From Neobacillus vireti (GTDB taxonomy: Bacteria; Bacillota; Bacilli; Bacillales; Cytobacillaceae): a DNA stretch of 64,000 nt. Under the pieces are notes generated by a model. The model did not search any database. It saw only the letters and a list, made by a program, of their open reading frames with translations, and had not been told where the DNA came from. How positions within the stretch are numbered: the first letter of the stretch is position 1; each line of letters opens with the position of its first letter. The stretch lies in NCBI RefSeq assembly GCF_001026695.1, contig NZ_LDNB01000015.1:62001-126000 (forward strand), given 5' to 3'. Shown in pieces: positions 2,971 through 13,333 of this stretch. The position numbers were made by a program, and so were the translations under genes.

Positions 2971-4677
2971 TTACGCGTGCTTTTTGCTTTCTTCCTCTAT
3001 TTTTTGGATTTCTTCCTCTACAAGCATTCTCCTTAAAATTTTTCCAACAGCGGTTTTTGGTAATTCTGGCCTAAATTCATATAGCCGCGGCGCTTTGTAG
3101 GCTGCCAGATATTTTCTTGCATATTCGTTTATTTCATCAGCGGTAATCCTCGATCCTTCTTTTAAGACTATATATGCCTTCACTGTTTCACCGCGGTATG
3201 GGTCAGGTATGCCGGCAGCGACTGCCTCAAGGACATCCGGATGCTCATACAATACTTCTTCGATTTCTCGTGGATAAATATTAAAGCCGCCAGCTATAAT
3301 CATATCCTTTTTGCGGTCGACCACATAAAAATATCCCTGTTCATCCATATAGCCAAGGTCTCCAGTGTACAGCCAGCCGTTGCGGAGGACTTCCTTTGTT
3401 TCTTCCGGTCGATTCCAGTAACCCTTCATAATCTGCGGACCTTTTACGACAATTTCACCAATTTCCCCTACAGGTATTGGCTCACCATTATCCATCGATA
3501 GTATCACGGCATCCGTATCAGGGTATGGAACACCGATGCTGCCTTTTATTTTCGGAGCGTCCCACAGGAAGTTGGAATGGGTGACAGGTGAGGCTTCTGT
3601 TAATCCATAGCCTTCAACAAGCTGCCCGCCGGTAACTTCCTCGAATTTTTGCTGGACTTCAATCGGGAGCGGGGCCGAACCGCTTATACAAGCTTCTATT
3701 GATGAAAGGTCATATTTCTTCAAATCCGAATGGTTTAACAAGCCAATATAAATCGTAGGTGCACCGGGAAATAAAGTTGGGCGCTGTTTTTCGATTGTTT
3801 TTAACGTGGTCAGCGCATCAAATTTCGGCAGCAGAATCATTCGATAGGCCATCTTAATCGAAAATATCATGACCGTTGTCATCCCGTAAACATGGAAAAA
3901 AGGAATGATTCCGAGCACAGATCCTTCCCCTGGTTTGCATTTGTATAGCCACTTTTCACTCATTTCTGTGTTGGCGATTAAATTTTTGTGGGTTAACATG
4001 ACACCCTTCGGAGAACCGGTCGTACCGCCTGTATATTGCAGTAAGGCCACATCTTCCTCTACATCGAAATTGTATGCGGTTACTTTTTGTGGACTGCTAG
4101 TTAATATTTTCGTTAGCAGATGGATGTTTCCTTCATGCTTTACTTTAACAACAATTCCATATTGTTTTTTCTGAATGAAAGGATAAACGAGATTTTTTGG
4201 GAACGGCAGAAAGTCTTTGATGGCAGTGACAATAATATGCTGTAATTCCGTTTTCGGCATTACTTTAGAAACACGCGGGTAGAGGATATCTAAGGTGATG
4301 ATGGCTTTTGCTCCGGAATCCTTCATTTGATACTCAAGTTCACGCTCTGTATATAGCGGATTGGTTTGGACGACAATTCCGCCAGCTAGTAAAATAGCAA
4401 AATAGCTGATGACCGCCTGGGGTGTATTCGGAAGCATGATAGCGACCCGGTCGCCTTTTGAGATACCAAGGGTTCCTTGCAAGTAGCCTGCAAAATTTAA
4501 GGCATCGTCGTAAAGTTGTTTATAGGTCCATTCCTTTCCCATAAAATGAATGGCACTCTTTTCCGGAAACTTCTCAGCTGATTTCTGCAAGCAACTCTGT
4601 ACTGGTTCTGAGGAGTATTCAAGTGTGGCAGGAATTTCTTTTGGATACACGTCCAGCCATGGTTTCGACTCCAACAT
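2971..4677 (-). CDS. lcfA: Long-chain fatty-acid-CoA ligase
   Basis: 568 residues, normal for LcfA. It activates fatty acids to acyl-CoA with ATP, the entry step to beta-oxidation. ANL-superfamily motifs in order: phosphate loop YTGGTTGSPKGVMLTH near residue 215, YGLTEASP near 355, YTGDLGYMDEQGYFYVVDRK near 435, and the C-terminal catalytic-lysine segment with PKTAVGKILRRML near 545. The start at 4677 follows AAGGGAGG. A 298-bp gap with the FadR box separates it from fadR. No clear FadR box was found upstream of lcfA itself. Confidence 0.96.
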   Translation of the reverse strand: MLESKPWLDVYPKEIPATLEYSSEPVQSCLQKSAEKFPEKSAIHFMGKEWTYKQLYDDALNFAGYLQGTLGISKGDRVAIMLPNTPQAVISYFAILLAGGIVVQTNPLYTERELEYQMKDSGAKAIITLDILYPRVSKVMPKTELQHIIVTAIKDFLPFPKNLVYPFIQKKQYGIVVKVKHEGNIHLLTKILTSSPQKVTAYNFDVEEDVALLQYTGGTTGSPKGVMLTHKNLIANTEMSEKWLYKCKPGEGSVLGIIPFFHVYGMTTVMIFSIKMAYRMILLPKFDALTTLKTIEKQRPTLFPGAPTIYIGLLNHSDLKKYDLSSIEACISGSAPLPIEVQQKFEEVTGGQLVEGYGLTEASPVTHSNFLWDAPKIKGSIGVPYPDTDAVILSMDNGEPIPVGEIGEIVVKGPQIMKGYWNRPEETKEVLRNGWLYTGDLGYMDEQGYFYVVDRKKDMIIAGGFNIYPREIEEVLYEHPDVLEAVAAGIPDPYRGETVKAYIVLKEGSRITADEINEYARKYLAAYKAPRLYEFRPELPKTAVGKILRRMLVEEEIQKIEEESKKHA

Positions 4678-10509: not shown

Positions 10510-11526
10510 GTGGGAAATGTGGTAATTATTCTGGGAATGACCGAAATCATGAAAATGCACGATTATTACAGTAAACAGTTAGTCGATAAGAATCCACCAG
10601 GAAGTGTGTTCGCCGCGAAAACTTCTGCCTGTATGGTCACAGCTTATAAATCTGGGAAAGTTCTATTCCAAGGAAATGATTGTGAAAAAGAGGCGGGGAA
10701 ATGGGGCGGCGCCGCTAGAGGTGGTGGTGCCGGGAGTGGCGATGGCCGTGGTTCTGATGGTGGCCGCAGCGTTACCGTTGCCGGGGGGACTGCTAAAAAG
10801 CCCGCTGCTGCCAAAGGAAAATCTGCGGCGAAGGGCGACCTGCCCATCGGTATCGGCGGGATGTCAGCCATCGGATCAGATGAAGTCGGAACGGGTGATT
10901 TTTTCGGTCCGATTACTGTTGTTGCGGCTTATGTAAAAAAAGAACACATTCCATTATTAAAAGAATTAGGCGTCCGAGATTCGAAGGATTTAGGCGATGA
11001 AAAAATCATTGCGATTGCCAAGGTTATCAAAGATGTCGTTCCCTTCAGCCTGTTGACACTGAAAAATGAAAAATACAATCAAGTGCAGCAAGCAGGCTGG
11101 TCCCAAGGAAAAATGAAGGCTGTTCTTCATAACCAGGCAATATTAAATGTGCTGGGGAAAATTTCACCAGAAAAGCCGGAAGTGATTCTTATTGATCAAT
11201 TTGTCCAATCGAGTACTTATTTTCAACATTTAAAAAATCAAAAAGCGATTGCAAAGGAAAATGTTTATTTTAGCACGAAAGCGGAGGGAATCCATCTGGC
11301 GGTCGCGGCCGCCAGCATTCTTGCCCGCTATGCTTTTATTCAATATATTGATAAGCTTAGCGAGACCGCGGGCTTTAAGATTCCGAAAGGCGCCGGGGCA
11401 CAGGTTGATGTTGCGGCTGCCAAGTTGATTGTAAATAAGGGGCGAGATGTGCTGCCTTCCTTTGTAAAGCTTCACTTTGCCAATACCGATAAGGCACTGG
11501 CGCTTGTCAATAAAAAACGTAAATAG
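10510..11526 (+). CDS. rnhC: Ribonuclease HIII with expanded Gly/Ala linker
   Basis: 338 residues, against about 313 in B. subtilis. Cleaves RNA in RNA-DNA hybrids. The N-terminal substrate-binding (TBP-like) domain covers about residues 1-62, and the catalytic RNase H2-type domain begins near 117 with IGSDEVGTGDFFGP, then LGVRDSKDL, ILIDQF and STKAEGIHLAVAAASILAR. Between them lies an unusually Gly/Ala/Lys-rich linker, about residues 64-108, from a GC-rich stretch (10690-10860). The GTG at 10510 aligns with the family start but has a poor ribosome site. A GTG at 10519 is an alternative. Confidence 0.95.
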   Translation: MGNVVIILGMTEIMKMHDYYSKQLVDKNPPGSVFAAKTSACMVTAYKSGKVLFQGNDCEKEAGKWGGAARGGGAGSGDGRGSDGGRSVTVAGGTAKKPAAAKGKSAAKGDLPIGIGGMSAIGSDEVGTGDFFGPITVVAAYVKKEHIPLLKELGVRDSKDLGDEKIIAIAKVIKDVVPFSLLTLKNEKYNQVQQAGWSQGKMKAVLHNQAILNVLGKISPEKPEVILIDQFVQSSTYFQHLKNQKAIAKENVYFSTKAEGIHLAVAAASILARYAFIQYIDKLSETAGFKIPKGAGAQVDVAAAKLIVNKGRDVLPSFVKLHFANTDKALALVNKKRK

Positions 11527-11835: not shown

Positions 11836-11844
11836 ATTAAAAGA

Positions 11845-11883
11845 GGTTGCCCCGCAGTTTGGTCGGAGGGGCAGCCTTTTTTG
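11845..11883 (+). terminator. Terminator of rnhC-pterin dehydratase
   Basis: GGTTGCCCC / GGGGCAGCC arms followed by TTTTTTG, directly after the pterin dehydratase stop. Confidence 0.9.
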
Positions 11884-11997
11884 TGTATTTTCGAGATTTG
11901 TTCGATGAAAAAACTTAATAAGTAAAATTCCTGCTCATTTTGGAGTCATTTTTCGTACAAAAATAGGTCGACTATCCGGTCAAAACGTCCTTTTTAA

Positions 11998-12095
11998 ATT
12001 TTATCAGCGATTTTGAGAACTATTTCAGCGAATCTAGCATGTTTATCAGCGAATCTCCACCATATTTCAGCGAATTTTTCATTTTATCAGCGAAT
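11998..12095 (+). repeat. 21-bp-phased TCAGCG repeat array, copy 1 (downstream of the NERD gene)
   Basis: Five units of core TTATCAGCGAAT or TTTCAGCGAAT. The TCAGCG cores start at 12004, 12025, 12046, 12067 and 12087, so the spacing is 21, 21, 21 and 20 bp. Units with ATCAGCG and TTCAGCG alternate. Spacers are 9-10 bp and AT-rich. The array ends 7 bp before the NERD stop codon. It is nearly identical, spacers included, to the array at 13175-13272. Confidence 0.92.
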
Positions 12096-12102
12096 TGAAA
12101 AT

Positions 12103-13077
12103 TTACCTTGGAAAAGATTTTAGAAAATAAAAACGACCCTTTGTTGCTCCTGAATAAGAAAGATTGGCAGAAAGTAATAATCTTTTTGCTGTGTCGTGTG
12201 ATTTTAAATGTACAAACTCCCTGAACTGCTGATTTGTTATTTTCGTATCTATAAGTAAAAAGTAATCCATCAGTGCTTGTAGATGAGCATCGTTTGAATA
12301 TTCACCACACTTAGTGCAGTACCATTTCTGTTTCTTACGTATAAGTGGACCATGATTGCAAGCTGGGTCAAAAACACCGGTTACTAGGTCCGTCTTGTTA
12401 ATTTCATATTTATTTAAAATATAATTGGTCGGGACTTTATTCATTTTTACGAGTAGGCGGCTTAGCTTGCGAAGATCCTTCGAGGTTAGGATTGGATCGG
12501 AATATAGTTTTTCAAAATACTTAATTTTATTATTGAAAACATCTGCCTTACATACCCGTGGCCGGACTTTATGAGAATTTTTTCCGGTGATGACATATGA
12601 GGCATAATTATTGCTGATGACTACTAAGTGATCAATTGGAACTTGGGGAAATTTATGTTCAGCCATCAGTTTCTTTAAATACTCTTGATGTCTTTCTGCC
12701 TGTGCTATTGGATAAGTATAACCTTTTTCCTTTTCATTGTTTATTTGTATAAATTGTTCATTTTCAGTATCAAAAATTAATTTACCAGTCATATTTTTAA
12801 CTTCGATAATAAGGGCGAATTCTGGTGTCAACAGGAGGGTATCAATTTGGCAGTTGTAGTCACCATCAGGAAGATTTAAATCATGGAGAATTAAGTATTT
12901 ATCTATCGGAAGTAGACGTAAATAATAATCTAAAGCTACCTCCCCTTGATAACCCGCTTGCCTCCTTCCTAGTTCCTCTAAAATTTGCTGATATTTGGGG
13001 TAGTTCAGTGGAAGACGCCGGCATAATGCCTGCAAAATTAGAATTACTAATGGAATTGTCCTTTCTTTTATAACCAA
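12103..13077 (-). CDS. NERD-domain (nuclease-related) protein with C-terminal zinc-binding segment
   Basis: 324 residues from a TTG at 13077, chosen because AAAGGAG lies 8 bases upstream; longer frames lack a good site. The NERD domain, a PD-(D/E)xK-like nuclease fold, covers about residues 40-160. Likely catalytic residues are Glu46 (GYQGEVAL), Asp79 (QIDTLLL) and Glu92/Lys94 (IIEVKN). A hydrophobic stretch at residues 6-18 may anchor it. Near residue 240 a C-N-H ... C-x-x-C pattern (CNHGP, YCTKCGE) suggests a zinc knuckle. The ends are flanked by matching repeat arrays, as in a cassette. The target is unknown; no partner gene is adjacent. Confidence 0.85.
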   Translation of the reverse strand: MVIKERTIPLVILILQALCRRLPLNYPKYQQILEELGRRQAGYQGEVALDYYLRLLPIDKYLILHDLNLPDGDYNCQIDTLLLTPEFALIIEVKNMTGKLIFDTENEQFIQINNEKEKGYTYPIAQAERHQEYLKKLMAEHKFPQVPIDHLVVISNNYASYVITGKNSHKVRPRVCKADVFNNKIKYFEKLYSDPILTSKDLRKLSRLLVKMNKVPTNYILNKYEINKTDLVTGVFDPACNHGPLIRKKQKWYCTKCGEYSNDAHLQALMDYFLLIDTKITNQQFREFVHLKSHDTAKRLLLSANLSYSGATKGRFYFLKSFPR

Positions 13078-13174
13078 TACAATCACTCCTTTCATTTTAG
13101 ATAAGAATTTCTCATAATCCACCAAGATCCCTGCCGAATTTTAGCGAAATTTGTTAACGTTTTATGTCTATTAA

Positions 13175-13272
13175 TTTTTATCAGCGATTTCGTGAGCTAT
13201 TTCAGCGAATCTAGCATGTTTATCAGCGAATCTCCACCATATATCAGCGAATTTTTCATTTTATCAGCGAAT
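13175..13272 (+). repeat. 21-bp-phased TCAGCG repeat array, copy 2 (upstream of the NERD gene)
   Basis: Five TCAGCG cores at 13181, 13202, 13223, 13244 and 13264, with exactly the same spacing as copy 1. Only a few bases differ between the copies over 98 bp, mostly in the first spacer. Same orientation as copy 1, so the NERD gene lies between direct repeats. The array lies about 100 bp upstream of the NERD start and could also act in its promoter region. Confidence 0.92.
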
Positions 13273-13290
13273 CCGATATTCTCTCCCTAA

Positions 13291-13326
13291 AAAAGAAAAA
13301 GCCAGCCCGAAATTTCGGACCAGCCT
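13291..13326 (-). terminator. Terminator of pheST
   Basis: Long stem centred on CCGAAATTTCGG followed by TTTTTC on the minus strand, 8 bp after the pheT stop. Confidence 0.85.
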
Positions 13327-13333
13327 CTATTAA

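Follow-up and report, generated by a model that had tools for sequence, protein, structure and literature searches.

A gene encoding a protein with a NERD nuclease-like domain stands, in the 64-kb stretch of Neobacillus vireti DNA analysed here (the window), between two nearly identical arrays of short direct repeats, and the locus raises the question of what ties such a gene to such repeats. The original prediction described arrays of 98 bp, in one orientation and with their spacers copied along with the repeats, enclosing a NERD gene. This description is correct in each respect: the gene product matches the Pfam family PF08378, and the two five-unit arrays on either side of it form direct copies of 102 nt (11994-12095 and 13171-13272) that are 95% identical, spacers included. 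The units themselves are direct and non-palindromic. The features of the locus are as follows.

11994-12237, no strand: segment comprising the final ~130 bp of the gene together with the 3' array, which diverges as a unit between relatives whose array types differ
12000-12096, plus strand: 3' (DN) array, five units TTTATCAGCGAATC at spacings of 21, 21, 21 and 20
12103-13077, minus strand: NERD / CxxC / winged-helix gene, 324 aa, with the TTG start at 13077 as residue 1
12106-12303, minus strand: predicted C-terminal winged-helix domain coding region, about residues 259-324 (AlphaFold2 and VIA-align)
12169-12198, minus strand: predicted recognition helix, residues 294-303 (AlphaFold2 helix 293-302 in model numbering, which is the residue minus 1)
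13078-13176, no strand: spacer from the UP array to the gene, part of which resembles the same place in the C4 cassette
13177-13273, plus strand: 5' (UP) array, five units TTTATCAGCGAATC at spacings of 21, 21, 21 and 20, lying 99 bp ahead of the start codon
13297-13328, minus strand: hairpin resembling a terminator, behind pheT and beyond the UP array (terminator scan)

Read from the sequence, the TTG start at 13077 is preceded by AAAGGAGTGATTG. The DN array lies 6 bp past the stop codon and reads ATTCGC-TG-ATAAA in gene sense, a type that agrees with the recognition helix of the window gene (see below). On an array-finder scale with a maximum of 13 the two arrays scored 11.4 and 11.6, against a maximum of 6.6 in one shuffled window, and they are the only two arrays scoring at least 7.4 within the 64 kb. 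The neighbouring genes, by Pfam, encode RNase H (PF01351), a pterin dehydratase, pheT and pheS; the RNase H gene contains a glycine-rich low-complexity linker between its DUF3378 and RNase HII domains (window 10700-10860). Of the two terminators between which the gene had been placed, the scan recovered the one at 13297-13328 as its single hit, shuffles averaging 1.0, and the second, past the pterin dehydratase at about 11842-11884, was recognised by eye only.

Domains and predicted fold of the protein

A Pfam scan of the protein at E 0.001 returned NERD alone (83.2 bits versus a curated cut-off of 22.1), with no HUH Y1 tyrosine enzyme and no replication initiator family. The AlphaFold2 model has a mean pLDDT of 92.3 and a pTM of 0.88. 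Structural comparison with VIA-align matched its N-terminus to the PD-(D/E)xK nucleases Cdn1, Can2, VC1899, McrC and Bax1, with middling Z scores of up to 8.9, and its C-terminus (model residues about 259-323) to winged helix-turn-helix (wHTH) proteins, including ArsR- and IclR-type regulators, with Z scores of about 7, likewise middling. The top row in Foldseek was the small subunit of R.BspD6I (E 1.6e-3), and no row fell below 0.001. The best reading of the modelled protein is that of a PD-(D/E)xK (NERD) nuclease-like domain followed by a CxxC segment, which we read as zinc-ribbon-like, and a C-terminal winged helix. Residues G44, E45, D78, K93, C253 and C256 (residue number minus 1) are invariant across 38 aligned homologs, while H294, K298 and L302, at positions i, i+4 and i+8, are predicted by AlphaFold2 to line one face of the last helix of the winged helix. 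The protein has no match among phages (E 1e-8) or plasmids (E 1e-15), and an origin from either was rejected on this ground.

Association of NERD genes with arrays

That the nuclease gene is tied to a repeated motif was part of the original prediction, and it is upheld, more strongly than the window alone could show, by close homologs as well as by the matching of helix and unit described below. None of the 56 distinct genes of the window clade examined in the genus is farther than 400 bp from an array, which lies 3' of the gene in 52, 5' of it in 44 and on both sides in 40. The unit type varies from gene to gene among these homologs, and the UP array precedes the start codon by a median of 101 bp. 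When periods from 14 to 29 were scanned across 60 rows, duplicates included, 20/21 rings were seen in 60 of 60, 21/22 rings in 42, 19/20 rings in 6 and others in none, with a mean unit spacing of 20.77. An RNA-level motif was set aside because this spacing keeps to one DNA face and because a DNA-reading helix matches the units.

The own genome contains 13 NERD matches. Three of these genes belong to the window clade, each lying between a pair of arrays and each pair being of a different type. Six other NERD genes have 20/21-bp arrays 5' of the gene with quite different units, the array at L074 being weak, and four NERD genes with another C-terminal region have no array. Across the order, 116 of 150 genomes match the protein of the paralog L079, mostly over its full length among the matches listed. 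A sample of 30 such loci (29 from other genomes and one own) showed a 20/21-bp array within 1.5 kb at 26, of which two (L246 and L255) are weak or low-complexity; the nearest array was at 300 bp or less in 25 of the 26, and L241, L245, L252 and L254 had none. The background against which these 26 of 30 are to be set is 8.6%, as measured at randomly chosen positions in 802 kb, all of it from the own genome. Homologs from outside the class that match the NERD part only had an array at 0 of 14 loci, one genome of the same class had one at 1 of 4 matches, and 16 of 199 genomes of the phylum match at all, 13 of them over the NERD part only.

These counts bear on the simplest alternative, which is that common MITE-like repeats happen to lie near NERD genes. 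In keeping with it, some TG arrays are embedded in a longer repeat whose ends carry short inverted sequences. The explanation is nevertheless scarcely credible and is largely refuted by the 56 of 56 and 26 of 30 loci with arrays and by the helix-unit matching, and a chance neighbourhood was rejected on the own-genome background and the NERD-part-only controls.

Several loci depart from the common pattern. In the clade genes L126, L127, L158, L159 and L160 the constant half of the arrays is AAGTGC/AACTGC instead of ATTCGC. The clade NERD genes L166, L170 and L303 have internal stops and yet adjoin arrays, L303 being without an aligned helix. A NERD-like frame of 222 aa (L342, at G000:C5:127638), matched over residues 114-318 only and with no Pfam match, has TTCTCGCCAGTAA arrays, and the same type was noted by eye at C24:49975 and C7:2581.

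Correspondence between recognition helix and array unit

In gene sense, the unit of the clade reads ATTCGC-N1-N2-ATAAA or similar, and the identity of the variable dinucleotide follows two residues of the predicted recognition helix. The discovery set comprised 38 rows representing 37 distinct genes, L172 being a duplicate of L138; L126, L127, L166 and L141-L145 were left out, and L165, the sole array of which runs in the opposite direction, was unlabelled; an automatic recount misread this array and so gives 38 for the discovery genes. The information that residue 294 carries on N2 is complete (1.52 of 1.52 bits), and this residue ranks first for N2 by excess over shuffled labels; residue 298 likewise has the top excess for N1, some more variable columns being higher in raw terms. 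Isoleucine at 294 goes with N2 = A (13/13), arginine with C (8/8) and H, P, S, Q, D or E with G (17/17), while lysine at 298 goes with N1 = T or C (29/29), glycine with A (7/7) and arginine with G (2/2), so that N2 is given by residue 294, and the class of N1 by residue 298, in 38 of 38 rows.

The rule was written first and then applied to 20 new clade loci, 18 of them non-duplicate (L298 equals L131 and L302 equals L140), which came from the same homology search and so are related. N2 was correct in 14 of 15 cases, with no prediction for L303 (truncated), L307 and L309 (V294), and the one miss, L306, has a 5' array only. N1 was correct in 12 of 15, with misses at L295, L297 and L314 and no prediction for L296 and L312. 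Among more distant relatives, N2 was correct in 8 of 9 testable loci (L141, L143, L144, L145, L249, L260, L263 and L266, with a miss at L239). For L141-L145 the array types were known beforehand and the helices unseen, L142, which adjoins masked DNA, being uncounted. The remaining loci (L239, L249, L252, L260, L263 and L266) were chosen for a TCGC core after helices and arrays were known, and this part is not blind, the rule having been noted earlier; L252 has no array and is uncounted, and L249 and L266 share nearly the same helix.

A UP array of another type is not rare. In five genes (L122, L134, L169, L295 and L296) the UP and DN arrays differ in N2, and the DN array fits the helix in all five; the 3' array is thus the cognate one. 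Since the arrays at the two sides can differ in type, a simple duplicated target site was rejected, and the near-identical pair in the window may reflect the copying of one array to the other side.

The main rival explanation is that the arrays are operators, with the winged helix acting at the UP array as a repressor of its own gene and regulating others through dispersed arrays, and with the nuclease-like domain being regulatory or acting elsewhere. The steady distance of the UP array from the start codon would suit an operator, as would a wHTH fold whose structural matches include regulators of the ArsR and IclR types. Such a role is unlikely, given that the cognate array is the 3' one and that the nuclease residues are invariant; the dispersed arrays considered below count against it as well.

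Specificity as an exchanged module

Array type has changed 16 times on a tree built from residues 1-280. On the supported branches of this tree, N2 = A goes with I294 in 8 of 8 independent pairs (p 0.008) and N2 = C with R294 in 6 of 6 (p 0.03). Every independent pair for residue 294 agrees on a tree of the C-terminal domain too, where the small number of pairs precludes significance (for A, C and G, 3, 1 and 3 on supported branches; 6, 3 and 6 on all branches).

Comparison of related loci at the DNA level places the change at the end of the gene. The window gene and that of Neobacillus soli (L122) are 88-90% identical up to gene base 840, and identity then falls to 62% in the wHTH end and 51% in the 3' 170 bp; for L132 and L135 the figures are 97-98% up to base 840 and then 71% and 58% in the same two regions. 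Among author-chosen pairs, the wHTH-coding end was 61-74% identical in 6 of 6 pairs of different type and 77-96% in 4 of 4 of the same type, and the 3' 170 bp may differ within one type as well (59% for L146/L148). Because identity falls in both beyond base 840, these alignments indicate that the 3' end of the gene, with its helix, and the 3' array are replaced together as a swappable specificity module. As the helix and the 3' array are adjacent and move together, their match could partly be shared ancestry, which weakens the statistics given above.

A specificity that can be exchanged, in a gene that is often lost, would also be expected of an anti-phage or anti-plasmid nuclease undergoing fast changes of specificity in an arms race, the self arrays serving to hold, sense or buffer the protein. 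The NERD domain is weakly similar to the defence proteins MAD6 and PglW, far below their cut-offs. We consider a defence role improbable, however: no defence model scored above threshold for the protein, the four neighbours at the window locus are housekeeping genes, and the matching DNA sits in the host's own intergenic regions.

Dispersed arrays and their turnover

Arrays also occur away from NERD genes. A search of the genome with the 96-nt array gave 24 matches; TATCAGCGAAT occurs 67 times and its reversed pattern 2 times. The arrays are mostly of five units 20-21 bp apart, units inside one array being mostly of the same type, and the types include TCAGCG, TTAGCG, TTTGCG, TCGGCG and CAATGGGCG. 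Of 61 genomes of the genus, 36 contain three GCGAAT motifs at 20/21 bp, and none contains the reversed pattern. With the DnaA boxes of oriC excluded, 802 kb of the own genome hold 25 non-coding array loci, a grouping made by eye, as were the type assignments of L342 and L074. Five are not assigned, one of them being of the AA type, for which the own genome has no gene; the other 20, three of which adjoin the gene itself, are of a type found beside one of this genome's NERD genes or their relatives. The original prediction had taken a wide occurrence of the array without any NERD gene, or a NERD gene at this spot without arrays, to count against it. Arrays without the gene are indeed widespread, but the association is not refuted by them, because 20 of the 25 loci are of NERD-associated type; and a gene without arrays was seen at none of the 16 pheT loci that carry one.

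Those 16 belong to 30 pheT loci listed from 61 genomes, the others having an array alone (6), a remnant of 2-3 units (2) or nothing (6). The proposal that the locus is a mobile cassette fared unevenly. At pheT the gene is an old resident, and a recent transposition into this locus was rejected since many species carry it at this position. The C4 relative, on the other hand, looks copied to further loci, in some cases together with the gene and in others lacking it. Four TTAGCG-type loci share their outer flanks, one having the gene, one both arrays without the gene and two a single array, which are the states expected from recombination between direct repeats.

Turnover is also seen in the genome nearest by pheT DNA (G023, 92%). 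Flanks of nine of ten sought array sites were found there, with an array at one, a single unit at one and no TG-type array at seven, although for three of the seven (L054, L058 and L064) the alignment stopped short of the site. Four further sites in this genome, located by searching with the array, do retain arrays, and at one of them the array is of the other species' type. At L063 there is a near-clean difference of about 250 bp, and some TG-array copies have short inverted ends, with no target duplication established. A decay of orphan arrays was looked for and not seen: the orphan AA arrays of the own genome are not more decayed than TG arrays (0.87 versus 0.94 mismatches per unit; n=6 and n=19), in a small sample in which AA arrays mostly adjoin TG arrays. 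This argues against the resident protein keeping arrays intact.

Quick turnover of array sites is a further point against operators, as is the position of some arrays between convergent genes (C6:10912, C6:311034, C24:58328 and C24:82091, by a simple ORF call). It also speaks against the idea that the arrays serve to organise the chromosome and that the protein acts as a nucleoid factor. Tens of array matches in many genomes and a two-turn spacing would be in keeping with that role, but 25 of 61 genus genomes have no match to the pattern used (other unit types escape this pattern), and we regard it as very improbable.

Some of the dispersed arrays lie in larger arrangements. TG and AA arrays occur side by side in the same orientation at L053:3323-3586, L054:3242-3450, L058:3069-3287 and L065:2829-3068. 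The order TG then AA, in NERD sense, resembles the N. soli L122 cassette without its gene, and these pairs are possible deletion products. At L056 and L070 the TG and AA arrays are in opposite orientation. At L052, L059 and L064 the TG array (near 3414, 3435 and 3209) is carried by a repeated element about 235 bp long, which has short inverted sequences at its ends (GGCTGTTT...AAAAGAGCC) and contains a motif like GTGTAAAATTACAC. A dispersed repeat of ~150 bp, GCGCAAGCGCC...GCTGGACAATTCTC, borders the TTAGCG elements of L055, L060, L061 and L068, and is also present in C24 and C6.

A model of array recognition and processing

The observations as a whole are probably best explained by a NERD-wHTH protein that reads its own arrays, has a swappable specificity and, by analogy, processes the arrays. 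The winged helix would read the 13-bp unit, with five copies of the unit presented two helical turns apart on one DNA face and with residues 294 and 298 reading the variable dinucleotide. It is very likely, judging from the sequence relationships, that the protein binds its own array in this way, cooperatively and along a single DNA face. The nuclease would then act at the arrays, and repair or recombination would lead to their copying, spread and removal, sometimes with the gene included, by analogy with RAYT-REP systems. On this analogy, nicking or cutting in or near the arrays by the protein is an evenly balanced proposition, and the step by which the resulting repair or recombination copies, spreads and deletes arrays is slightly less probable still. 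Joint exchange of the 3' gene end and the adjacent array would change protein and target together. Arrays of the resident types are, in addition, scattered without the gene and come and go quickly. Comparison of sequences supports the pairing, helix-unit matching, module exchange, dispersal and turnover; binding in the cell, cleavage, protein-driven spreading and a selfish or useful role are what we infer.

Relation to known systems

A REPtron consists of a gene bracketed by repeats, the REPs being palindromes of 20-40 bp that are handled by an HUH tyrosine enzyme. The window gene and 40 of the 56 clade genes are similarly bracketed by arrays, and solo arrays are also found in the genome. By analogy the REPtron is the nearest concept, but enzyme, repeat and module exchange differ: here the repeats are direct five-unit arrays at 20-21 bp, the protein is predicted to be of PD-(D/E)xK-wHTH type, and a module of helix plus array can be exchanged. 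In iteron replicons (P1, F and RK2), about five direct repeats two turns apart are bound by winged helices and flank the gene of the binder. The direct repeats described here, ~20 bp apart, likewise adjoin the gene of the putative binding protein. The differences are that Pfam finds NERD only, without an initiator, that the locus is chromosomal, that arrays are dispersed, and that the protein has a nuclease-like domain.

In the HsdS subunit of restriction-modification systems the recognition part is swapped as a block while the remainder of the gene is kept; here, in contrast, the target array travels with the recognition part, and there is no methylase among the four window neighbours. Type IIS and nicking endonucleases such as R.BspD6I, as well as homing endonucleases, join a restriction-like nuclease domain to a separate DNA-reading domain. 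The present gene differs from R.BspD6I in having no methylase neighbour, and from homing endonuclease genes in lying between two whole arrays rather than within a split site; gene-free alleles with a solo array do occur at pheT. CRISPR arrays have longer repeats, longer unique spacers and cas genes, unlike the 13-bp units and 7-8 bp spacers seen here.

RAYT/TnpA genes are resident genes associated with the REP repeats that their products are thought to recognise, many of these repeats being intergenic (PMC2817692, PMC8266576). The role of NERD in bacteria was termed unstudied in 2022 (PMC9040797), and two other papers mention the domain in passing (PMC4057527, PMC10910872). In the titles and abstract openings of the matches listed for NERD, for the array sequence and for repeats of this kind, a scope that lies outside most subscription papers and bioRxiv, no description of the pairing of NERD genes with arrays was found; the matches listed for the array sequence concern other subjects, by title.

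Significance

In many Bacillus-like bacteria the gene is accompanied by arrays that match its recognition helix, and gene end and array appear to be exchanged jointly; this points to a self-associated genetic element of a new kind. There is about an even chance that this is a previously undescribed and widespread class, in which NERD-wHTH nucleases would recognise, process, spread and delete their own five-unit arrays and be retargeted by joint exchange of helix and array, with about nine differently addressed copies in one genome (one of the nine arrays behind this count is weak). For NERD proteins, the likely DNA target would be readable gene by gene from the genome through a rule of two residues to two bases, and the function of this large family would become directly testable. 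The same loci offer natural sets of re-addressed DNA-reading winged helices, and the reading put forward here would account for a family of repeats that lie between genes in Bacillales.
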